In this document: positions 273-60,677 of the stretch, one piece after another | Position numbering within the stretch: the stretch's first letter is position 1 | How the letters are laid out: every line of letters begins with the position of its first letter | DNA from: Roseospira goensis | GTDB taxonomy: Bacteria > Pseudomonadota > Alphaproteobacteria > Rhodospirillales > Rhodospirillaceae | Direction: 5' to 3' | Assembly (NCBI RefSeq): GCF_014197795.1 | Contig: NZ_JACIGI010000015.1 | Coordinates: 43,262-107,261, forward strand | Length of the DNA: 64,000 nucleotides | The notes under the pieces: model-generated | What the model was told of the DNA's origin: nothing | The model's input: only the letters and a program-made list of their open reading frames with translations | The model's database searches: none | Program-made: the position numbers and the translations under genes

Positions 273-327
273 CCGCCGGCGCTGCCCCCGTGCCGTCCTC
301 TTCCCCGTCCCCGCGCCAGAGACCGCC

Positions 328-1002
328 ATGCCCGACTTCACCCTGGAATCCGCCCACGAGGGCCTGGTGTGCGGCGTCGACGAAGCCGGCCGCGGGCCGC
401 TGGCCGGGCCGCTGGTGGCCGCCGCCGCCGTCCTGGACCGCGCCCGCCTGCCGACCGCCCTGCGCGAGGGTCTGGACGATTCCAAGGCGCTGAAGCCGGC
501 GCGCCGCGCCGCCCTGCTGGGCGCCCTGGAGGCCAGCGACGCGGTGCGCCTGGCGGTGGCGGTGGTGGACGTGGCGGAGATCGAGCGCCGCAACGTCCTG
601 GGTGCCACCCTGGCCGGCATGGTCCGGGCGGTGGCGGCCCTGGGGGGGCCAGCGCCGACTCTGGCGCTGGTGGACGGCAACCAGCCGCCGCCGGACATGC
701 CCTGCCCGGTGCGCTGCGTGGTCCGCGGGGACGCCCGCTGCCTGTCCATCGCCGCCGCCTCCATCGCCGCCAAGGTGACGCGCGACCGCCTGATGATCGC
801 CCTGGATGCCGCGCACCCCGGCTATGGCTGGGCGCGCAACATGGGCTACGGCACCGCCGAGCATCTGGCGGCGCTAGGACGGCTGGGGGTGACGCCGCAG
901 CACCGGCGCGGCTATGCGCCGGTGCGGGCCGCGCTGGCAGCCGAGGCGGCGCCCCACGGGCTGTGGCCCCGCGACCACAGCGGACCCATCCCTGGCGCCT
1001 GA
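328..1002 (+). CDS. rnhB: Ribonuclease HII
   Basis: 224 residues. The N-terminal GVDEAGRGPLAGPLVAAAAV carries the conserved Asp-Glu metal-binding pair of type 2 RNase H. Further catalytic acidic positions lie in LVDGN (the third conserved Asp) and the SIAAASIAAKVTRDR block, which is the family signature. The enzyme cleaves the RNA strand of RNA/DNA hybrids and removes single misincorporated ribonucleotides in the cytoplasm. I chose ATG 328 (MPDFTLESAHEG) because the in-frame upstream start at 259 adds an arginine/proline-rich leader that overlaps the previous gene and is atypical for the family. It lies just upstream of ccrM, an arrangement I recall from other alphaproteobacteria. Confidence 0.95.
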   Translation: MPDFTLESAHEGLVCGVDEAGRGPLAGPLVAAAAVLDRARLPTALREGLDDSKALKPARRAALLGALEASDAVRLAVAVVDVAEIERRNVLGATLAGMVRAVAALGGPAPTLALVDGNQPPPDMPCPVRCVVRGDARCLSIAAASIAAKVTRDRLMIALDAAHPGYGWARNMGYGTAEHLAALGRLGVTPQHRRGYAPVRAALAAEAAPHGLWPRDHSGPIPGA

Positions 1003-1079
1003 CCGGGGCCGGACCCCCAACCCGTTGCGATCGTACGGGATGCGAGAAAACATCAATTTCACCTCCAAAACATCCCGTA

Positions 1080-1116
1080 GAGTCCTGAATTAAAACAAAC
1101 ATTGTCATGCCGACTC
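1080..1116 (+). promoter_or_regulatory. Two GANTC methylation sites in the ccrM leader
   Basis: GAGTC at 1080-1084 and GACTC at 1112-1116 sit 80-120 bases before ccrM. GANTC is the target of CcrM itself. In Caulobacter the ccrM promoter region carries GANTC sites whose methylation state helps time expression. A TTAA half-site at 1090-1093 resembles half of a CtrA box, but the second half is not convincing. The segment is noticeably AT-richer than its surroundings, as expected of a promoter. Confidence 0.5.
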
Positions 1117-1148
1117 GGCCGGCGTACAAACGTCAAACGGCTCGTGCC

Positions 1149-2396
<1,248 letters not shown>

Positions 2397-42670: not shown

Positions 42671-43945
42671 ATGATGGGGATCTCGACCCGCGTGGGCACG
42701 TTCGCGCAGCGAACGTCGCTCGTGCAGCAGATGATGACGGTCCAGAAGCGCCTGTACGAGACGCAGACCCAGCTCAGCACCGAAAAGAAGTCGCAGGACT
42801 ACGCCGGTGTCTCCATCGACAGCTTCCGGCTGGTCAGCGTCGAGACCGAGAAGACCTCGGTGCAGCGCTTCACCCAGGGCAATCAGATCGCCAACGTCCG
42901 CCTGGGCACGATGGAGACCGCCGTCAGCGGCCTGCGCGAGAGCGTGCGCACGTTCCGCAACGATCTGATCGCGCTCAACAATCAGACCTTCGACCCGAGC
43001 AACGGCGACGACCTGCAGAAGCTGCGCGAGATCCAGGAGCGCGCCTTCGCCACCCTTCAGGACGTCTCCGGCTACCTGAACACCAGCACCGACGGGCGCT
43101 ACCTGTTCGCGGGCGGGCGCACCACCATCGCGCCGGTCGAGGTGCCCTACGGCGATCTGGACGCCTTCCAGGCGGACTACACCGGCGACGCCGGGACCGG
43201 CCTGATCTACCCGGACACCCGCCCGGCCAACGTGCCCGACATCAAGGTGACACCGGACGAAATGTCGGCGGCGCTGTCCTTCGGCGGCGGTCCCGGCGCC
43301 TACACAGTGACCGTCACCCCGGCCTCGGCGGTCAACAACATACCGGTGGGCGCGACGGTGCGCCTATCCGACTCGGATACCAGTGAGACCTACACCGTCA
43401 CCGCCAACGCCGCCGGCGTGCTGACCCTCGGCGAGGGGGCGAACGGCACCGCAGCGACGGCCGCAACCTTCGACACGAGCGGAACCACCATCGAGACCGT
43501 CAGCTACTACCGGGGCGACAGTCTGGCGATCGACCACCGGGTCAGCGCCGACCGTACCATCCAGCTCGGCGTCACCGCCAAGGATCCGGCGTTCGAGAAG
43601 GCGGTGCGCGCGCTCGGCACGCTGGCCCAGGGCGACCTGGAGAACAACCTGGGCCGGCTCGACACCGCGCTGACGTGGCTCAACGAATCGCTGGACGACA
43701 GCAGCACCGCGGCCAGCGACCTGGACACGGTGGCGCGCCGCATCGGCTTCCAGCAGGTCACCCTCAACCGGGCCATCGAGGAGGCCCAGTCCTACGAGGT
43801 GTTCCTGGAAAACCGGCAGACCGAGATCGAGAACGTCAACATCATCGACGCCGCCACCCGGTTGCAGGACGACGCCCGCGCGCTCGACGTCTCGTTCCAG
43901 AGCTACGCCCGCATCAGCCAGTTGTCGCTGCAGCAGTACATCTAG
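42671..43945 (+). CDS. flgL: Flagellar hook-associated protein 3 FlgL
   Basis: 424 residues. The flagellin-like N-terminus is ISTRVGTFAQRTSLVQQMMT, then VQKRLYETQTQLSTEKKSQD, and the C-terminal helix includes ENVNIIDAATRLQDDARALD. The central insertion with YLNTSTDGRYLFAGGRTTI is the FlgL hallmark. It forms the second ring of the hook-filament junction. AGGAGG at 42658-42663 sets the ATG at 42671 (a second ATG follows immediately). Downstream a GC-rich hairpin without T-run may end the transcript. Confidence 0.93.
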   Translation: MMGISTRVGTFAQRTSLVQQMMTVQKRLYETQTQLSTEKKSQDYAGVSIDSFRLVSVETEKTSVQRFTQGNQIANVRLGTMETAVSGLRESVRTFRNDLIALNNQTFDPSNGDDLQKLREIQERAFATLQDVSGYLNTSTDGRYLFAGGRTTIAPVEVPYGDLDAFQADYTGDAGTGLIYPDTRPANVPDIKVTPDEMSAALSFGGGPGAYTVTVTPASAVNNIPVGATVRLSDSDTSETYTVTANAAGVLTLGEGANGTAATAATFDTSGTTIETVSYYRGDSLAIDHRVSADRTIQLGVTAKDPAFEKAVRALGTLAQGDLENNLGRLDTALTWLNESLDDSSTAASDLDTVARRIGFQQVTLNRAIEEAQSYEVFLENRQTEIENVNIIDAATRLQDDARALDVSFQSYARISQLSLQQYI

Positions 43946-49445: not shown

Positions 49446-49607
49446 CTGGGTGGTGCCGGTTTTCTGGGTGGTGCCAGCATCCGCTGTGCCATGCGGGATC
49501 GGTGCACGGCGCCCGGGACCGGCCGGTGTCACTGGACAAACGGCCGACCGCGGCCGATACCGGACGGCATCACCGCCCACCCCTTGCCCGCGCACAGGAG
49601 GCCGCCC

Positions 49608-50342
49608 ATGACCGCGTCCGCCCCGAAGGCCCCACACCGAGCCGCCACAGACGCCGCGCACGATGGTGCGCAGCCCAAGCGCCGCGTGGCGGTCTGGGAC
49701 CTGCCCACCCGCCTGTTCCATTGGGGTCTGGTGGCGGCCCTGGGGGTGGCCTGGTGGAGCGGCGAGGAGGGCGATTTCACGGTCCATTTCATCGCCGGCC
49801 ACGTGGTTGTCGGGCTGTTGGTGTTCCGCCTGCTGTGGGGGGTGATCGGCAGCCAGACGGCGCGCTTCTCCGACTTCGTGCGCGGCCCGGGCGCGGTGGG
49901 GCGCTACCTGCGCCGAACCTTCAGCAAGGCCCCGGACGACAGCATCGGCCACAACCCCGCCGGCGCGGTCATGGTGCTGCTGCTGCTGCTGATGGTCGGG
50001 GTCCAGGCCGGCACCGGCCTGTTCGCCAGCGAGAACACCTGGGCCTTCGTCTCCGGCCCGCTGGCCGGCCTGGTCGACGGCGCCACCTCCAGCGACCTGA
50101 CCAGCCTGCACAAGGGCGTGCTGTTCAACGCCCTGCTGGTGCTGGCCGGCCTGCACGTGCTGGCCGCCGTGGTGTATCTGGTGGTCAAGCGCGAGAACCT
50201 GATCGGCGCCATGGTGGTGGGCCGCAAGTGGCTGCCCGCCGACAAGGCCGACCCGCCGCCGCGCATGGCCAGCCGGGTGCTCGCGCTCGCGGTCGCCCTC
50301 GCCGCCGCCGGGCTGGCCGGGTGGCTGTACAGCCTGACGTGA
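49608..50342 (+). CDS. Cytochrome b561-domain (cytochrome b) protein
   Basis: 244 residues, four to five membrane helices. Haem-ligating histidines lie in PTRLFHWGLVAALG, FHFIAGHVVVGLLV, TSLHKGVLFNALL and LAGLHVLAAVVYLV. This is the YodB/hydrogenase-type cytochrome b fold that transfers electrons to or from quinones, often paired with a c-type cytochrome; no partner gene is next to it. The N-terminal ~25 residues are polar and cytoplasmic. AGGAGG at 49596-49601 sets ATG 49608. Confidence 0.88.
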   Translation: MTASAPKAPHRAATDAAHDGAQPKRRVAVWDLPTRLFHWGLVAALGVAWWSGEEGDFTVHFIAGHVVVGLLVFRLLWGVIGSQTARFSDFVRGPGAVGRYLRRTFSKAPDDSIGHNPAGAVMVLLLLLMVGVQAGTGLFASENTWAFVSGPLAGLVDGATSSDLTSLHKGVLFNALLVLAGLHVLAAVVYLVVKRENLIGAMVVGRKWLPADKADPPPRMASRVLALAVALAAAGLAGWLYSLT

Positions 50343-50447: not shown

Positions 50448-51128
50448 GTGTCCCTGGATCGTCCTCCGTCGCCGAGGGGTGCGGCTTTGCCCCAACGTCT
50501 CGCCCTATCCCCGTCCGCGCAGACCTCCCGCGACGGACCGGCCCTGATGACGCGCCTGCGCGCCGCCACGCGGGAGCCGCATGAGGCCCTGCACCGCGCC
50601 GCGCTGCTCGCGCCGTTGCAGGCGCCACGGCTGGAGGCCGCCCGCTATGGCCGCATCCTGGCCCGGTTCGACGCCTTCCTGACGGTCGCCGAGACCCAGG
50701 TCCTGATCCCCGCCGATCCGTGGCTGGCGCGCCAGGGTTTCGCGCGCGCCTCGCGCCGGCCGGCCCTGGCCGCAGACCTCGCCGATCTGGCCCGCGCCGG
50801 CGTGACGCCCACCGCCGACCCGCCCGCGCCCCCGGCCATCGCCCTGCCCTCGGGACCGGGGGCGGCGCTCGGCGTTCTGTACGTGACCGAGGGATCGCGC
50901 CTGGGCGGACGCGGCCTCGCCCGCCACCTGGCCGGCGCGCTGCCGGCGCCGGTGGCGGGGGCGACCCGCTTCCTAGGCTCCCCGGAGGTCGATCTGGCGA
51001 CGCACTGGCGCCGGGTCGGCGCGGTCATCGACACCGCCGGGCGCGATCCGGGCCACGCCGCCGCCGCCCTGGAGGCCGCCCGGCGCGCCTTCGCGCTTCT
51101 GCACCACTGGTTCGACGAGAGGCCATGA
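50448..51128 (+). CDS. bphO: Biliverdin-producing heme oxygenase (BphO type)
   Basis: 226 residues from GTG 50448. LRAATREPHEALH places the proximal haem histidine at about residue 45, and GVLYVTEGSRLGGRGLARHL is the distal-helix Gly-rich motif of bacterial heme oxygenases. It opens haem to biliverdin, the chromophore of the phytochrome encoded next, whose ATG lies inside this gene's last four bases (ATGA). The first ~33 residues are poorly conserved and ATG 50547 is an alternative start. Coupled translation implies a matched supply of chromophore and apoprotein. Confidence 0.85.
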   Translation: MSLDRPPSPRGAALPQRLALSPSAQTSRDGPALMTRLRAATREPHEALHRAALLAPLQAPRLEAARYGRILARFDAFLTVAETQVLIPADPWLARQGFARASRRPALAADLADLARAGVTPTADPPAPPAIALPSGPGAALGVLYVTEGSRLGGRGLARHLAGALPAPVAGATRFLGSPEVDLATHWRRVGAVIDTAGRDPGHAAAALEAARRAFALLHHWFDERP

Positions 51129-53929
51129 GCGACAGCCGGACCGATCTGCCGACGGTGGATCTCAGCGAATGCGAGAACGAGCCGATCCACCTGCTGGAGC
51201 TGGTGCAGGGCCACGGCTGCCTTCTGGTGCTGGGCGGATCGCCGCTGGCGGTGCTTCAGGCCAGCCAGAACACCGAGGCGTTCCTGGGCACCCCCGCCGA
51301 CGCGCTGCTCGGCCGGCCGCTGTCCCAGGTGCTCGACCCGCTGGCGGTGCGTGGCCTGGAGGGGCTGGCCGCCCAGGCCGGGCGCGCCGACCTGCCGCCG
51401 CTGGGGGTCTACGCCCGGCCGCCGGCGGACCGGGGCCGGCTCCGCCGTCTGCGGGCCACCGCCCACCGCGCCGACACCGCCGACGGCGCGGTGCGCCTGA
51501 TCGTCGATCTCGAGCCGGTCGACGAGCATGACGAGGAGGCCGCCGAAGCGACCTTCGAGGCCGAGGGCATCGCCCAGGCCGGCCTGACGGAAAGTGAAAA
51601 CCTGTACCAGTTTCTCGACCAGGCGGTGCATGCGATCGCGGGCGTGACCGACTACGACCGGGTCATGGCCTACATGTTCCATCCCGACTGGTCGGGCGAG
51701 GTGGTGGCGGAGGCGCGCAACCCCGACCTCACCCCGTTCCTGGGCCTGCGCTACCCCGCCTCGGACATCCCGTCGCAGGCCCGCCGCCTGTACCTCAGCA
51801 CGCTCCTGCGGGTCATCGCCGACGTCAACGGCCTGGCCGTCCCCCTGACCCGGGCCGACTCGGTGGCCGACGACGGCCCGCTCGATCTCAGCCGGGCGGT
51901 GCTACGCAGCGTCTCCAGCTATCACATCGAGTATCTGCGCAACATGGGCGTGGGGGCGACGCTGGTCACCTCGCTGGTGATCGACGGCGCCCTGTGGGGC
52001 CTGATCGCCTGCCACCACATGGGGCCGAAGACGGTCCCCTGGCACCGGCGCGAGGCGGTCGCACGCCTGACCGCCCGCACCTCCGACCGCATCGGCGACA
52101 TCCTCAGCCTGCAACGCACCCGCCAGGAGCGGCGCAGCCGGCGCTTCCTGGAGATGGTCCAGGGCCGCCTGGGCGCCCGGGGCAACCCGCTGGACGTGCT
52201 GTTCTTCGGCGGCCCGCGCCTGAGCGACGTGATCCGCTGCGACGGCATCGCGGTGCACAGCCCGGACCGCACCGCCACCACCGGCAACACCCCGGCACCG
52301 CGCACCCTGGCCGCCTTCTTCGCCCGCGCCGCGGCCCACGCCGAGAACGGGGTGTTCGTCTCCCAGGCCCTGGCCGACACCCACCTGTTCGACGACCTCG
52401 ACCTGCCCGGCTGTCGCGGCGCGCTGGTGGCGTTTCCCTCCCGCGAGCCGCTGGTGGCGCTGGCCTGCTTCCGCGACGAGCTGGTGCGCGAGGTGCACTG
52501 GGGCGGCGATCCCAACAAGCCGGTGGAGGTGGACGCCGCCTCGCAGCGGCTGTCCCCGCGCAAGTCGTTCAATCTGTGGCGCGAAGAGGTGCGGGGCCAC
52601 TCCCGCGCCTGGGAGCCGTGGACTCTCGACCTGATGCGGCGGCTGGCCGACACCCTGGCCCGCGGCCTGGGCGGCACGACCGGCGCGGCGCCCGACCCCG
52701 CGGCCGAGGTGGCGGCCCTGGCCGCGGCCATGGACGACCTGCTCGACCGCTTCGAGCGCCGCGCCGGGAACCTCCTGGAAAGCCTCGATCTGGCCGACAA
52801 CGGCGCGCTGCTGGCGACCCCCCAGTCCGTGCTGGGCTGGCCCGAGGACGTGGCGGTCGCCGCCAACGCCGTGTTCCGTGACCGCTTCGACGTCGACGAG
52901 GGCGACATCGCCGAGCAGCCGGTCAAGACCGTCCTGCGCGCGCTCGGGCTGCCCGGCACCATCACCCACCTGCCGCCGGGCGGCAGCATGGAGGTGGAAT
53001 GGTGGTCGGGCGTCTCGGGTCATCGCACCCTGCACGTGCTGCGGCGCGGCCTGTTCGCGCTGGCGCGGGGCGAGGCCGAGCGCGCCTGGGTGATCTACGC
53101 CTTCGACGACGTGACCAGCTTCTACCGCACCCAGAAGGCCCTGGGCGCAGCGCGCACCCAGGCGATGGCGCGCACCCGGGGCCGCACCGAGTTCCTGGCC
53201 CAGCTCGCCCGGGAGCTGCGCGCGCCTCTGCACGCCATTCAGGGGTTCGCGGACTCCCTGACCCAGGACCGGACCGAGACCCACGCCGACCGCTACCGCG
53301 ACTATGCAGGGGAGATCCGCTCCCTCAGCGGCAACCTTCTCGACCTGCTGAACGACCTGCTGGACGTCGCCCGCCTGGAGGGCGGCGGCGAGCCCGGCGG
53401 CAGCGGCGTCTTCGACCTGACCCTGCTGGTGGGCGACATCTGCCGCGAGGTGCGCGACAGCGGACGCGACCACGGCATGGCCTGGGACTGGCACCTGCCC
53501 AACGAGCGGATCCTGGTTCAGGGCGACGTGGGCGCGCTGCGTCATGCCCTGGCGACCCTCATCACCGCGGCGTTGCGGGCCAGCCTGCCCGACGGCCCGG
53601 TGATGGTGCGCCTGACCATGGAACGCGGCGGCGAGCCGCGCGTCTCGGTCAGCGACACCGGCCTGGGGCTGGGCGAGGACGACCTGATCGCCCTGCGCCG
53701 GCCGCTGGACGCCACCCTGGCCCACGGCGGCGAGCCGCACCGGGGCATCGGCCTGGCACTGGTGCGCGGCCTGGTGGACCTGCACGGCGGCGGGGTGACG
53801 GTGACCAGCAACCCGGACTCCGGGACCACCGTGCACGTGACCCTGCCGCGCCACCGCGTGGTCGACCGCGACAACCTGCCTGGCGGCGGTGCCGCGGCGG
53901 CCACCCGCCCGACCCTGCGGACCCCGTAG
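51125..53929 (+). CDS. bphP: Bacteriophytochrome with degenerate histidine-kinase module
   Basis: 934 residues. The PAS domain carries the biliverdin-attaching Cys16 (LSECENEPIH). The GAF domain has PASDIPSQARRLYL (Asp214) and YHIEYLRNMGVGATLVTSLV (His267). The PHY domain includes the tongue motif SPRKSFNLWREEV. An extra PAS-like domain (~560-680) precedes the dimerisation helices. There the expected phosphoacceptor motif SHELRTPLNAI reads ARELRAPLHAI, so the histidine is Arg696 (codon 53210-53212), and the ATPase N-box Asn is also lost (LITAALRAS). G1 (DTGLGLG) and G2 (GIGLALVRGL) remain. It should sense red/far-red light, but autophosphorylation at the usual site is not possible. It shares a 4-base overlap with the heme oxygenase gene. 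Confidence 0.9.
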   Translation: MSDSRTDLPTVDLSECENEPIHLLELVQGHGCLLVLGGSPLAVLQASQNTEAFLGTPADALLGRPLSQVLDPLAVRGLEGLAAQAGRADLPPLGVYARPPADRGRLRRLRATAHRADTADGAVRLIVDLEPVDEHDEEAAEATFEAEGIAQAGLTESENLYQFLDQAVHAIAGVTDYDRVMAYMFHPDWSGEVVAEARNPDLTPFLGLRYPASDIPSQARRLYLSTLLRVIADVNGLAVPLTRADSVADDGPLDLSRAVLRSVSSYHIEYLRNMGVGATLVTSLVIDGALWGLIACHHMGPKTVPWHRREAVARLTARTSDRIGDILSLQRTRQERRSRRFLEMVQGRLGARGNPLDVLFFGGPRLSDVIRCDGIAVHSPDRTATTGNTPAPRTLAAFFARAAAHAENGVFVSQALADTHLFDDLDLPGCRGALVAFPSREPLVALACFRDELVREVHWGGDPNKPVEVDAASQRLSPRKSFNLWREEVRGHSRAWEPWTLDLMRRLADTLARGLGGTTGAAPDPAAEVAALAAAMDDLLDRFERRAGNLLESLDLADNGALLATPQSVLGWPEDVAVAANAVFRDRFDVDEGDIAEQPVKTVLRALGLPGTITHLPPGGSMEVEWWSGVSGHRTLHVLRRGLFALARGEAERAWVIYAFDDVTSFYRTQKALGAARTQAMARTRGRTEFLAQLARELRAPLHAIQGFADSLTQDRTETHADRYRDYAGEIRSLSGNLLDLLNDLLDVARLEGGGEPGGSGVFDLTLLVGDICREVRDSGRDHGMAWDWHLPNERILVQGDVGALRHALATLITAALRASLPDGPVMVRLTMERGGEPRVSVSDTGLGLGEDDLIALRRPLDATLAHGGEPHRGIGLALVRGLVDLHGGGVTVTSNPDSGTTVHVTLPRHRVVDRDNLPGGGAAAATRPTLRTP

Positions 53930-53977: not shown

Positions 53978-55723
53978 ATGGTGCCGACCGCCGCCGGCCA
54001 CCGCTTCGGCCGGCGCGCCGTTCGCAACCGGGGGGTCAGTCGGGAGGCCCGAACCATCGCGTACCGCGCCCGTCTTCGTCGTCCGGGCCCCTGGACCTGG
54101 GGCAGCCTGCTCGTCGCCGGCCTGGTGGCGCTCCCGCTGGTCGCGGTGTTCGTCATGGCGCTGTGGCCGGAGGAGAACATCTGGCCACATCTGGCCGCCA
54201 CGGTGCTGCCGCGCTACCTCACCACCACCGTGCTGCTGATGACCGCCGTCGGCGCCGGCACCCTGACCATCGGGATCACCGGCGCCTGGCTGGTCACCAT
54301 GTACCGCTTCCCCGGCCGGCGCCTGTTCGAGTGGGCGCTGCTGATGCCGCTGGCGGTGCCGGCCTACGTCATCGCCTACGTCTACACCGACCTGCTGGAA
54401 TACGCCGGGCCGGTGCAGGGGGCGATCCGGGCCGTGTTCGGGTTCGACAGCGCGGCCGACTACTGGTTCCCCGAAATCCGCTCGCTGCCGGGCGCGGCCA
54501 TCATGATGACGGCGGTGTTCTACCCTTACGTCTACCTGCTGGCCCGGGCCGCCTTTCTGGAACAGTCCCTGTGCGTGCTGGAGGTCAGCCGCACCCTGGG
54601 CTGCGGCCCCTGGGCCTCGTTCCGCCGGGTGGCGCTGCCGCTGGCCCGGCCGTCCATTGTGGTCGGCCTGGCACTAGTGCTGATGGAGACCCTGAACGAC
54701 TTCGGCACCGTGGACTACTTCGCGGTGCAGACCCTGACCGCCGGGCTCTACAATGTCTGGCTGATCCTGCACAACCGGGCCGGCGCGGCCCAGATCGCCC
54801 TGGTGCTGATGGGCTTCGTGGTGCTGCTGATCGTGGCCGAGCGCCTGGGCCGACGCCGGCGCGGCTATCAGGCCACCAGCACCCGCACCCGCAGCAGCGC
54901 CGGCGTGCGCCTGACCGGCTGGCACGCCCCGCTCGCGACCGTCGCCTGCGCCCTGCCCATCGTGGTGGGGTTCGTCGTCCCGGTGGCCGTGCTGACCCGC
55001 CACGCCGTGGTGCGGTTCGAGGAGTCGTGGAACGCCGGGTTTCTGACCCATGCCCTCAGCAGCCTGGGCCTGTCGGCCGGCGCCGCCCTGATCGCGGTTG
55101 CCATCGGGCTGTTCCTGGCCTACGCCGTGCGCCTCGACGGCGGCCGCGGCCTGCGCCTGCTGGTGCGCTTCGCCAGCCTGGGCTACGCCATCCCGGGCGC
55201 GGTGCTGGCGGTGGGGGTGCTGACCGTGCTGGCCGGGATCGACAACACCGTGGACGCGATCATGGAAGGCACCTTCGGGATCGACACCGGCCTGCTGCTC
55301 AGCGGCACCGTGTTCGCGCTGCTGTTCGCCTACACCGTGCGCTTCCTCGCCCTGTCGCACGGCACCCTGGAGGCCGGCCTGGGCCGGGTGCGCCCCAGCC
55401 TGGACATGGCGGCGCGCACCCTGGGGCGCACGCCCGGGCAGGTGCTGCGCGAGGTGCACGCCCCCCTGGTGCGCGGCAGCCTGCTGACCGCCGCCCTGCT
55501 GGTGTTCGTGGACTGCATGAAGGAGCTGCCGGCCACCCTGATCCTGCGCCCGTTCAACTTCGAGACCCTGGCCACCCATGTCTACCAGTTCGCCTCCGAC
55601 GAGTTGCTGGAACAGTCCGCCCTGGCCGCGCTCAGCATCGTTCTGGTGGGCCTGATCCCGGTGCTGCTGCTGAGCCGCTCGATCTCGCGCGCCCGCGACT
55701 GGGGTCAGGGGGGGCCGGCATGA
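53978..55723 (+). CDS. Iron-type ABC transporter permease (FbpB/SfuB-like)
   Basis: 581 residues with two fused permease halves, about 12 membrane helices. Each half has an EAA-type loop: EVSRTLGCGPWASFRRVALP and MAARTLGRTPGQVLREVHAP. LMETLNDFGTVDYFAVQTLT and KELPATLILRPFNFETLATH are typical of ferric-iron permeases. It would import Fe3+ delivered by a periplasmic binding protein, which is not encoded nearby. ATG 53978; the ATPase gene overlaps its stop codon (ATGA). Confidence 0.9.
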   Translation: MVPTAAGHRFGRRAVRNRGVSREARTIAYRARLRRPGPWTWGSLLVAGLVALPLVAVFVMALWPEENIWPHLAATVLPRYLTTTVLLMTAVGAGTLTIGITGAWLVTMYRFPGRRLFEWALLMPLAVPAYVIAYVYTDLLEYAGPVQGAIRAVFGFDSAADYWFPEIRSLPGAAIMMTAVFYPYVYLLARAAFLEQSLCVLEVSRTLGCGPWASFRRVALPLARPSIVVGLALVLMETLNDFGTVDYFAVQTLTAGLYNVWLILHNRAGAAQIALVLMGFVVLLIVAERLGRRRRGYQATSTRTRSSAGVRLTGWHAPLATVACALPIVVGFVVPVAVLTRHAVVRFEESWNAGFLTHALSSLGLSAGAALIAVAIGLFLAYAVRLDGGRGLRLLVRFASLGYAIPGAVLAVGVLTVLAGIDNTVDAIMEGTFGIDTGLLLSGTVFALLFAYTVRFLALSHGTLEAGLGRVRPSLDMAARTLGRTPGQVLREVHAPLVRGSLLTAALLVFVDCMKELPATLILRPFNFETLATHVYQFASDELLEQSALAALSIVLVGLIPVLLLSRSISRARDWGQGGPA

Positions 55724-56844
55724 CGGCTGCGGCTGCGGCGCCCGCCCTCGCCTTCAAGGGGGTCACCCACGGCTACGACGACGGCCGCCCGGTGGTGCGC
55801 GCCCTGGACCTGACCCTGGCGCCGGGCGAGGTGGTGTGCCTGCTCGGCCCGTCCGGCTGCGGCAAGACGACGACATTGCGCCTCGCCGCGGGCCTGGAGC
55901 GGCCCTGGACCGGCACCGTGCGCATCGGCGGGGCGACGGTGGCCGACGCCGGCGCGGCGCCGCCGGTGCACGTGCCACCGGAGCGGCGCCGGGTCGGGTT
56001 CCTGTTCCAGGACTTCGCCCTGTTTCCGCATCTGACCGTGCTCAACAACGTCCTGTTCGGCCTCAAGGGCCGGCCGCGCAAGGCGGCGCAGGCGCGCGCC
56101 CGGGCGGTGCTCGCCGACGTCGGCATGGCCGACCACGCCCGCGCCTGGCCGCACCAGCTCTCCGGCGGCCAGCAGCAGCGGGTGGCGCTGGCCCGGGCGC
56201 TGGCGCCGGAACCGGCCCTGCTGCTGCTGGACGAGCCGTTCTCCGGCCTGGACACCCGCCTGCGCCGCACGGTGCGCGAGCAGACCCTGCGTGTCCTCCA
56301 GGAAACCGGGGTGGCCGCTTTGATGGTCACCCACGATCCGGAAGAGGCCATGTTCATGTCCGACCGCATCGCCCTGATGCAGGCCGGCCGCATCGTCCAG
56401 ATCGACAGCCCGATGCAGCTTCACCACCGGCCGCGCTCGCCCTTCGCGGTGCGCTTCTTCAGCGAGGTGAACGAGTGCGCCGGGGTGATCCGGAACGGCG
56501 CGCTGGACACCCCGCTCGGCCGCTTCGACGCCCCCGAGCTGGCCGACGGCACCCCGGCGCGGGTGCTGGCGCGGCCCGAAGCCCTGATCCCCACCCTGTC
56601 GGGCGACACCGGGTTCGCCGCCCGCGTGGTCTCGGTGCGGCCGCTGGGGCACGAGACCATCCTGCTGCTGGGTCTGACCGCCCCCGGCCGGCCGGAGAGC
56701 GAGGCCCTGCCGCTGACCGCGCGGGTGCCGGGCCGGCCGCGCTGCGATCCCGGCGACATCATCGCGCTGGCGGTGGAGGCCGACGAGTGCTTCGTCTTTC
56801 CCGACGCCGGCCCGGACCCGGAGGACGCCGGCGGCACCGGGTGA
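55720..56844 (+). CDS. Iron-type ABC transporter ATP-binding protein (FbpC-like)
   Basis: 374 residues. LLGPSGCGKTTTLRLAAGLE (Walker A), FLFQDFALFPHLTVLNNVLF (Q-loop), QLSGGQQQRVALARAL (signature) and ALLLLDEPFSGLDTRLR (Walker B) are followed by a C-terminal TOBE-like domain (ARVLARPEALIPTL, GHETILLLGL) as in FbpC/PotA. It energises the permease encoded immediately upstream, with a 4-base overlap. Substrate is inferred from the permease as ferric iron. Confidence 0.92.
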   Translation: MTAAAAAPALAFKGVTHGYDDGRPVVRALDLTLAPGEVVCLLGPSGCGKTTTLRLAAGLERPWTGTVRIGGATVADAGAAPPVHVPPERRRVGFLFQDFALFPHLTVLNNVLFGLKGRPRKAAQARARAVLADVGMADHARAWPHQLSGGQQQRVALARALAPEPALLLLDEPFSGLDTRLRRTVREQTLRVLQETGVAALMVTHDPEEAMFMSDRIALMQAGRIVQIDSPMQLHHRPRSPFAVRFFSEVNECAGVIRNGALDTPLGRFDAPELADGTPARVLARPEALIPTLSGDTGFAARVVSVRPLGHETILLLGLTAPGRPESEALPLTARVPGRPRCDPGDIIALAVEADECFVFPDAGPDPEDAGGTG

Positions 56845-57050
56845 AGACCACCGGCGAGTCTCTTGGCCCCCTTCCGCCGTTGGGGCACACTACCGGCATC
56901 GGAACCAACGGGCGTCGGGCCGGGCACCCCGGCGCCGCCAAGACCCGCCGTCAACAAGACCCGCCGTCAAACAGGGGGGCGCCGTCCCGGCATGGCCGGA
57001 CGCCCCGCCACGTGTGACCACTGGCGCGTGAGAACACCGGGAGGACGACC

Positions 57051-59006
<1,956 letters not shown>

Positions 59007-59186
59007 GCCGAGCGCGCCGGATCCGGACGCGGCCGGCCCCCTTGCCAGGACCGCAGCCGGGCGCCAGAGTCGGGGCATCGGCACCGCCGTGATCCGGCCG
59101 TCGGGGCGGCGGTGGACGGCGGGGCGCCGCCGCCCGACCGCCCCGACCGCCCCGACCGCTCCGAGCGAGGGCGAGCGAGGGAGAGC

Positions 59187-60677
59187 ATGACCGTGGACAC
59201 GCGCATCCTGTGGGGGGGCGGCGCCGTCGTCGGCGCGGCGGCGCTGGCCGTGGCGGCGTACCTGCTGCTGACCGGTCCGCCCGGCCCGGTCTCGGAGGAT
59301 CCGGTCGCCGAGGCCCCGGGTCGCGGGGACGCGTCGCGCCCCGGCGGTGCCCCGGAGTCCACCGGCAGCGCCGCCCTCGATCGCGCCCTGTCGGAGGCCC
59401 GCGACACCCTGTCGGCGGTGCCCGGCCCCGCCACCCCGGACGACCCGGCCGCCGCCCCCTCCGCTGACCCGGTCACCAACCCGGTCACCGACCCATCGGC
59501 CGCCGACTCGTCGGTTGCGGTCCGGCCGGCGCCCAACAGCGGACCCGCCGCGATCCCCGACACCGCCATCGACGCCGGCCCGGACGGTCCCGACGCCCCC
59601 ACCTTCGACATCGTGCGGGTGGAGCCGGACGGCAGCGCCGTGATGGCCGGCCGCGCCGCGCCGGGCGCCACGGTCTCGATCCTCGACGACGGCGAGACCC
59701 TGGGCGAGACCACCGCCGACGACCGCGGCCAGTGGGTGTTTCTGCCCGACCGGCCGCTGACCCCGGGCCAACGCGAACTGTCGCTGACCGCGCGCGGCGG
59801 CCACCCCGCCGAGACCACGCCCGCGCCGGCCGCATCGGCCCCGGCCGTCCCGGCCGCGCCGCAGGGGGCCGACGCCATCACCGCGCAGGCCGGCACCACC
59901 CCCGACCCGGCCCCGGCTGCCCCCGCCGCGACGGCTTCGGCCGGCGGCGGCGGGTCGGTATCCGCCTCCGCCGGCGCCCCGCCGGACGCGCGCCGCTCCG
60001 AGACGGTGGTGGTGCTGGCCGTGCCCGGCGCCGACAGCCCCGACGCCCCGGTCATCGCCCTGGAGGCGCCCCGGGTCGGCGGCGGCACCGGCCGCCTGCT
60101 CCAGGGACCGGCGCCGGCGATGGCCAGCGGCACGTTGCAGCTCTCGCGCGTCGATTACGCCAGTGGCGGCGCGCTGGCGTTGTCCGGCACCGCGCGGCCG
60201 GGGGCGACGCTCCAGCTCTACCTCGACAACGCGCCGGTGGCCCGGGTCGAGGCCGACGCCGGCGGCACCTGGCGCGCCAGCCCCGAGACCGCCGGCCTGG
60301 ACGAGAAGGTCTACACCCTGCGCGTCGACGAGGTGCGCGCCGACGGCGCCGTGCGGCGGCGGGTGGAACTGCCGTTCCAGCACACCGACCTTGCGCTCGG
60401 TGCGGGCGCCGACGGCGAAACCATGGTGGTGGTGCAACCCGGCAACAATCTTTGGCGGGTGGCGCGCGCGGTCTACGGCCGCGGCATCGACTACACCCTG
60501 ATCTACGCCGCCAACGCCGACCAGATCCGCGACCCGGACCTGATCTACCCCGGGCAGGTGTTCCACATCCCCGACGCCCGGGACGACGCCCGGGACGGGG
60601 ACGGGGACGGGGACGCGGCCGGCGCCGACACCCCCGCCGGCCCCACCCCGCGCGACGGCGCACCGGCGGTCCGGTGA
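59187..60677 (+). CDS. LysM-domain envelope protein with Ig-like repeats
   Basis: 496 residues. An N-terminal membrane anchor ([20 protein letters not shown], ~8-28), a Pro/Ala-rich linker, two Ig-like repeats ([40 protein letters not shown]) and a C-terminal LysM domain ([20 protein letters not shown], then [20 protein letters not shown]). It would sit in the inner membrane with the LysM domain binding peptidoglycan. The related architecture is seen in LysM proteins of many alphaproteobacteria. GAGGGAGAGC sets ATG 59187. Its stop codon overlaps the next gene start (GTGA), so the two are coupled. Confidence 0.85.

Follow-up and report, generated by a model that had tools for sequence, protein, structure and literature searches.

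A Roseospira bacteriophytochrome with a dead histidine-kinase module that probably signals by protein binding

Introduction

How does a phytochrome pass on a light signal when its histidine-kinase module has lost the histidine that would be phosphorylated? The question is posed by bphP, a bacteriophytochrome gene in a 64,000-nucleotide stretch of the Roseospira goensis genome (NZ_JACIGI010000015.1, positions 43,262 to 107,261, forward strand; hereafter the window). The organism lies within the Roseospira/Rhodospira group of purple non-sulfur phototrophs, and bacterial phytochromes canonically signal by His-Asp phosphotransfer (PMC10813442). An earlier note, made from the sequence alone, proposed that the protein is an intact light sensor that signals by another route, namely protein-protein interaction, ATP binding only, or heterodimers. 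From comparative sequence analysis and structure prediction, we conclude that it is probably a light-gated pseudo-histidine-kinase that acts by protein binding.

Results

The window protein lacks catalytic residues of its kinase module

The open reading frame (ORF) of bphP runs on the + strand from an ATG at 51125 to a stop at 53929 and encodes a product of 934 aa, in agreement with the earlier note down to the residue numbering. The domain order of the product, PAS-GAF-PHY-PAS-DHp-CA, is that of a bacteriophytochrome. Pfam matches were over their cut-offs for PAS_2 (68.1 bits), GAF (52.2), PHY (112.7), HisKA (47.3, cut-off 26.9) and HATPase_c (64.6); as the HisKA score exceeds its cut-off, automatic annotation would probably label the product a kinase. 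The features of the gene are listed below, where ortholog counts refer to the seven genomes sampled from the genus, the window's own included, and paralog counts to the four canonical bacteriophytochromes described in the next section.

51125..53929, + strand: bacteriophytochrome with a dead histidine-kinase module, 934 aa (sequence, Pfam, alignment, model)
51170..52660, + strand: photosensory core, residues 16-512, comprising PAS_2 16-132, GAF 161-310 and PHY 353-512 (Pfam, alignment)
52802..53110, + strand: second PAS-like domain, residues 560-662, between PHY and DHp (strands and helices of the AlphaFold model, 46-148 in model numbering)
53114..53380, + strand: DHp (HisKA) helical hairpin, residues 664-752 (AlphaFold model 150-238; Pfam HisKA 687-754)
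53210..53212, + strand: codon 696, CGG, Arg where the phosphoacceptor His is expected (sequence, alignment; Arg in 6 of 7 orthologs)
53222..53224, + strand: codon 700, Ala where the Thr/Asn of the HExxT/N phosphatase motif is expected (Thr in 0 of 7 orthologs and 4 of 4 canonical paralogs)
53522..53851, + strand: CA (HATPase_c) domain, residues 800-909 (Pfam, 64.6 bits; AlphaFold model)
53567..53569, + strand: codon 815, Ala where the Mg-ATP-binding N-box Asn is expected (Asn in 0 of 7 orthologs and 4 of 4 canonical paralogs)
53654..53674, + strand: G1 box DTGLGLG, residues 844-850, kept
53744..53752, + strand: G2 box remnant GIG, residues 874-876, the first Gly of the canonical motif being gone

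The DHp motif of the window protein reads LARELRAPLHAI, and both the sequence and the ortholog alignment bear out the earlier reading that Arg696 stands in place of the phosphoacceptor His. Histidine kinases carry further boxes with established names and roles, the N-box, G1 and G2. The N-box reads TLITAALRAS with Ala815 at the Asn position, a loss that had likewise been recognized before. To these losses we add that of the Thr at His+4 (Ala700), which belongs to the HExxT/N motif and which we take to be needed for phosphatase activity. Both glycine boxes had been described as kept; this is true of G1, and G2 is partial, since the canonical GxGLGL reads HRGIGL and its first Gly is gone in all seven orthologs (two of which read GSVSL). 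The window protein thus has neither the His nor the N-box Asn nor the His+4 Thr/Asn of an active histidine kinase, and its DHp-CA fold is present.

On the sensor side, the chromophore features that the earlier note had listed were found intact. Cys16, Asp214, His267 and the PRKSF tongue are all present in the window protein; by alignment the first three are kept in all seven orthologs, and PRKSF was read in the window protein. An AlphaFold model of residues 515-934, built on an input alignment of 36 rows out of 43 listed stretches, resolved PAS-like, DHp and CA parts with a mean pLDDT of 87.3 and lower confidence around the lid, so that the dead DHp-CA module is predicted to fold. Pfam gave no PAS match for residues 560-662; this domain is homologous to the matching region of the canonical paralogs. 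Among the histidine kinases of the same genome, read at the 30 of 37 matches that have a locus, 28 have His at the phosphoacceptor position, one has Tyr (the DivL-like L219) and one, bphP, has Arg.

The losses are shared across the genus

By tblastn (best segment), relatives at 57-65% identity were Roseospira marina, R. navarrensis, R. visakhapatnamensis, Rhodospira trueperi and two metagenome-assembled genomes (MAGs), and the same search returned Acetobacter oeni at 34% and a Burkholderiales MAG at 29%. Nine of 74 family genomes matched at E <= 1e-60: the seven of the genus, G040 and G059. The orthologs in the genus are 59-67% identical to the window protein. The search of relatives for the same His-to-Arg change, which the earlier note had suggested, found Arg at position 696 in six of the seven, encoded by CGG or CGC, and His in one MAG (locus L019 of genome G034, Rhodospira sp. 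PL23b). The N-box Asn is missing from all seven (Ala in five, Lys in two), as are the Lys and Phe that follow it, the Lys being Arg in five, and none has Thr or Asn at His+4.

Four canonical bacteriophytochromes keep His, the His+4 Thr, the N-box Asn/Lys/Phe, G1 and G2. One is L009 of G040, and the others (L011, L012, L013) are second copies in three of the six genomes of the genus besides the window's own. In the window genome a single PHY-domain gene was found (98.6% complete assembly).

The dead module is under constraint

Omega, the ratio of nonsynonymous to synonymous change, was computed over the 21 ortholog pairs with a Nei-Gojobori-type script and is a rough estimate. It was 0.24-0.47 for the sensor, 0.11-0.46 for the DHp domain (19 pairs without synonymous saturation) and 0.21-0.69 for the CA domain, where it stayed below 1 in all 21 pairs; the CA domain of the canonical paralogs gave 0.41-0.64 (6 pairs). 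Identity among the seven orthologs was 0.51 in PAS, 0.76 in GAF, 0.58 in PHY, 0.53 in the linker PAS, 0.64 in DHp and 0.62 in CA. Within the CA domain the most conserved piece is the final strands in the orthologs (N-box 0.61, G1 0.73, lid-G2 0.55, final strands 0.81) and the N-box in the canonical paralogs (N-box 0.72, G1 0.58, lid-G2 0.58, final strands 0.63; whole CA 0.52).

In trees of 13 rows, the stem of the clade measured 1.69 changes/site for the histidine-kinase part vs 0.90 for the sensor, and the window tips are 0.159 and 0.157, respectively. The long kinase stem together with equal tips therefore points to fast change in one episode and constraint afterwards. Judged by these measures, the dead DHp-CA module is held by purifying selection and is repurposed, not decaying; the picture they suggest is of a fast episode that coincided with giving up catalysis.

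The clade is separate from the RpBphP1 type

RpBphP1 is a phytochrome that acts on PpsR2 and has a HOS domain in place of a kinase module. We identified five loci of its type by architecture (L099, L101, L102, L154 and L155; 727-747 aa, CA absent), of which L155 has RpBphP1 (4gw9) as its closest PDB entry, and ppsR adjoins bphP in all five. The pairs at L099, L101 and L102 lie in the window's own order, and those at L154 and L155 in the same class. The pairing thus extends beyond the two genera, Bradyrhizobium and Rhodopseudomonas, that PMC10813442 names. At a further locus, L184 (G464:C122, ~278-1705, minus strand), a PpsR-like gene lies upstream of a His-bearing bacteriophytochrome of another histidine-kinase type; therefore type 3 output, that of RpBphP1, is not the sole kind found near PpsR.

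In a sensor tree of 98 rows (12 from the genus and G040 set plus survey ORFs, 9 of 95 having been dropped for a short stretch; a quick search with SH-aLRT supports only), the seven orthologs form one clade (support 100) with the four canonical proteins beside them (11 rows, 96), and the RpBphP1-type clade (100) lies far away. In the histidine-kinase tree (71 rows after dropping short ones) the seven group with the bacteriophytochrome paralogs, the forks near L219 being open. The C-terminal profile of the clade matches that of the canonical paralogs over 390 columns (E 7e-68); against the C-termini of the five RpBphP1-type proteins it gave no match, in a test that is weak because the alignments are shallow. 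We reject descent of the clade from the RpBphP1 type on the sensor tree. The missing profile match is the lesser argument, given such shallow alignments and the description of HOS and DHp as distant homologs (PMC6899989). The window protein also differs from type 3 in that its CA domain is present and ppsR is not adjacent. Judging from the tree, the loss of kinase function in this clade is independent of that in RpBphP1.

A genus-wide dead kinase is unusual among phytochromes of the order and class

A search for PHY-domain genes was positive in 48 of 318 genomes of the order and in 32 of 385 genomes of the class, two sets that overlap. The 90 fetched regions, which exclude the genus and G040 matches, yielded 95 ORFs that match the sensor, some being pieces of the same gene. 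Among the 41 that also matched the histidine-kinase profile, 32 have His at the phosphoacceptor column, none has Arg, and nine have no letter there. Closer reading of these nine gave Glu in L182, an AHEI[GN]N His in L145, L149, L150 and L151, and the HWE type in L173; the site was not assigned in L106, L133 and L135.

The Glu-bearing ORF L182 (G415:C103, minus strand, 913 aa) has a similar architecture, belongs to another family of the class and keeps its N-box; it is apparently an independent loss of His. In family f23, six loci (L119, L122, L124, L129, L130 and L131) hold ORFs of 497 aa that carry a PAS-GAF-PHY core but lack an output domain, near-identical over six genomes.

bphP lies in a conserved trio of genes

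Two genes precede bphP, and the order cytochrome b561 - heme oxygenase - bphP on one strand recurs in all seven genomes.

49491..50342, + strand: cytochrome b561 family protein (PF01292; Pfam, 77.6 bits), first gene of the conserved trio
50448..51128, + strand: heme oxygenase (PF01126; Pfam, 50 bits), conserved in 7 of 7

The stop of the heme oxygenase ORF at 51128 overlaps the bphP start by 4 bp (ATGA), which substantiates the coupling seen earlier, and the enzyme is expected to make biliverdin. The cytochrome b561 gene may share an operon with the other two, and it is our guess that its product may be an electron source for heme oxygenase. Farther out, a gene like that at window positions 59112-60677 (a LysM-type match under the cut-off) lies upstream of the cytochrome b561 gene on the opposite strand in the six other genomes. 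In the window it stands downstream of bphP, behind ABC transporter and AMP-binding synthetase genes, and because of this placement we regard the region 53978-60677 as rearranged in the window genome. At L018, kinase-like and response-regulator-like ORFs recognized by eye lie ~1-3 kb downstream of bphP; they were unseen in the other genomes.

Discussion

A proposed light-gated docking module

In the mechanism we propose, an intact photosensory core is joined through the PAS-like domain to a DHp-CA module whose residues for autophosphorylation, for holding Mg-ATP and for phosphatase action are gone. Red/far-red photoconversion would shift the signaling helix and the PAS-like domain, this shift would rearrange the DHp helices and the CA domains, and the DHp-CA module would thereby offer its partner a surface to dock on, with an affinity that depends on light. 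That the protein no longer signals by His-Asp phosphotransfer, as the earlier note held, is supported at the sequence level by the genus-wide loss, by the absence of both kinase and phosphatase residues and by purifying selection. The routes that had been offered in its place fared differently. ATP binding only is weakened, because the N-box Asn and the first Gly of G2 are lost in all seven orthologs, although the retention of G1 tempers this. A heterodimer with a second phytochrome is unlikely in the window genome, given its single PHY-domain gene. Heterodimers with other kinases and protein binding stay viable.

In our view the partner would most likely be another two-component protein, either a response regulator docking on DHp in the style of DivL and DivK, or a histidine kinase captured in the style of RetS and GacS. 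We favor this class because the CA domain is kept and the positions that set response-regulator specificity are mostly retained while the catalytic ones are gone. At the positions known from HK853 (two in helix 2 being left out), Ala at His+8 is found in 7 of 7 orthologs and Gly at His+11 in 6 of 7, which lends weak support to a two-component partner. The full picture, a complete DHp-CA module turned into a light-gated docking platform that links red/far-red light to a two-component partner, independently of RpBphP1 and in parallel to the plant module, is one that we offer tentatively.

Several observations weigh against these conclusions. The fold does not reveal the function, because the fold matches include many active kinases. 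G1 is kept (D-x-G-L-G-L) in 7 of 7 orthologs. The sole His, encoded by CAT in L019, shows that Arg is not universal; this ortholog has nevertheless lost the N-box Asn, the His+4 Thr and G2, and its sister L018 has Arg (CGG). With six Arg and a single His nested beside an Arg sister, the tree requires two changes in either direction, and the codons CAT and CGG do not distinguish a loss followed by return from two separate losses. No conserved response regulator or other regulator was found beside bphP within ~6 kb on each side in the seven genomes (2.7 kb downstream for L019). The specificity argument is weak because Ala+8 and Gly+11 may be structural, and His+15 is changed in 5 of 7 orthologs. 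As for constraint, omega is rough, with DHp showing synonymous saturation in 2 of the 21 pairs; CA omega exceeds sensor omega in 13 of 21 pairs, and CA may therefore be under somewhat weaker constraint. The orthologs have a slightly lower DHp identity (0.64) than the paralogs (0.68), though the ortholog sensors are more alike. The length of the kinase stem is approximate because the 13-row kinase tree does not group the paralogs as one clade.

Alternative explanations

The chief alternative partner is PpsR. Here the protein would bind and neutralize the photosynthesis repressor PpsR/CrtJ in a light-dependent manner, as RpBphP1 does, having arrived there independently by death of the kinase instead of its deletion. 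This is one choice of partner within the protein-binding conclusion, so that our confidence in the two overlaps; we regard it as unlikely. The genus is phototrophic: PpsR (TIGR02040) scores above its cut-off and reaction-centre genes are found in 6 of 7 genomes each, the window's among those with PpsR, and BchH and light-harvesting complex genes are found in 7 of 7. Under far-red light, RpBphP1 uses its DHp-like HOS domain to bind PpsR2 (PMC6899989), and the PpsR-like gene beside the His-bearing L184 also speaks for this partner from outside the genus. In the window genome, however, ppsR lies on contig C1 and bphP on C15, and the six ortholog loci L014-L019 gave no PpsR match; at every RpBphP1-type locus, by contrast, ppsR adjoins bphP. 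The C-terminal parts share no profile match, in the weak test on shallow alignments described above, and the clade keeps a CA domain that the HOS type does not have.

The seventh genome, the G034 MAG (88% complete, ~750 contigs), has no PpsR or reaction-centre match. We considered whether the kept His of L019 goes with lost phototrophy and dropped the idea, as this MAG has BchH and light-harvesting genes; its gaps are most likely assembly gaps.

It is improbable that the histidine-kinase fold is a dimerization platform alone and that output arises elsewhere, for example by the sensor or the PAS-like domain binding a partner. DHp-type domains do dimerize bacteriophytochromes (PMC6899989), and DHp alpha1 is among the best-conserved parts of the clade (identity 0.76). 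The CA domain, however, is unneeded for dimers; it is kept in all seven orthologs with omega below 1 in every pair, and the best-conserved stretch that we measured lies within it.

Residual phosphotransfer, with another residue phosphorylated or with DHp phosphorylated in trans by another kinase, seems very improbable to us. The His at 696 in L019 and a His at position 703 in 4 of 7 orthologs could be cited for it. The N-box Asn, however, is gone from all seven, even the His-bearing one, as is the His+4 Thr, and Arg is not known to us as a carrier in such a phosphorelay. Position 703 is Gln in the other three, and we rejected His703 as an alternative phosphoacceptor.

Finally, gene decay or a sequencing error, which the joint loss of several catalytic residues might suggest, is the least probable explanation, because the same Arg is encoded by CGG or CGC in six assemblies, the reading frames are open and under purifying selection, and orthologs in all seven genomes keep the same gene order.

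Significance

The class of pseudo-histidine-kinases is already known, and the window clade is a new form of it within the bacteriophytochromes. In the literature searched we found no paper pairing Roseospira with a phytochrome and no description of a dead-kinase clade, and we claim no wider absence. With its sensor intact and its kinase dead throughout, the clade is a natural experiment that separates binding by DHp-CA from catalysis, and the canonical paralogs in three sister genomes permit direct comparison with the dead-kinase form. If protein binding is the route, the clade would represent a second, independent bacterial way to phytochrome signaling without phosphotransfer, beside the RpBphP1-PpsR2 interaction that is in use for optogenetics (PMC10813442). 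Bacterial phytochromes would then also have a new mode of output, and the plant kinase-like module a bacterial counterpart. Type 3 phytochromes have been suggested to arise from type 1 by insertion of PAS9, loss of the kinase and point mutations in DHp (PMC6899989). The window clade has a comparable half-way architecture (PAS inserted, kinase dead, CA still there), though it lies off the type 3 lineage.

Comparison with known systems

The nearest relatives are the canonical HisKA bacteriophytochromes with a PAS-like domain (L009, L011, L012 and L013), which share the domain order and are sister in the sensor tree; they keep His, the His+4 Thr, the N-box Asn/Lys/Phe and G2, which the window clade has lost except for the His of one ortholog. 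Among histidine-kinase-like transmitters that work by binding, RetS captures GacS and NifL binds NifA. RetS appears in both lists of fold matches to the window model, and NifL-NifA (9qq6) in the Foldseek list alone; neither is a phytochrome, and both differ in sensors and partners.

RpBphP1 (PAS9-HOS, acting on PpsR2) is, like the window protein, a phytochrome of a purple phototroph without kinase function. Its HOS domain is a distant homolog of DHp, and in a published model light opens its helices to PpsR2 (PMC6899989). The RpBphP1-type proteins found here are shorter, have no CA domain, stand beside ppsR and form a distant clade, whereas the window protein keeps CA.

Caulobacter DivL has Tyr in place of His, and its module serves to sense DivK~P (PMC4211667). 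DivL is not a photoreceptor, and the window protein has Arg where DivL has Tyr. The same source reports that DivL keeps its other boxes and that weak binding of an ATP analogue remains, a point that we count against our reading. The window genome has a separate DivL-like gene, L219 (G000:C3:156782-157489), with Tyr at the His site (SYELRTPLTTI); since no G1 box could be recognized in its alignment, it looks more degenerate than DivL as described.

DrBphP and Agp2 carry a kinase module for which autophosphorylation was not found (PMC10813442, PMC12471899), and DrBphP, with no kinase activity, acts as a phosphatase (PMC12471899). Such a role is unlikely for the window clade because the His+4 Thr is lost. 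Plant phytochromes offer the parallel of a C-terminal kinase-like module without a phosphorylating function, and in them PHY is followed by two extra PAS domains before this module (PMC10813442). Structures of AtphyA are among the fold matches of the window model, and the two extra PAS domains set the plant proteins apart from it.

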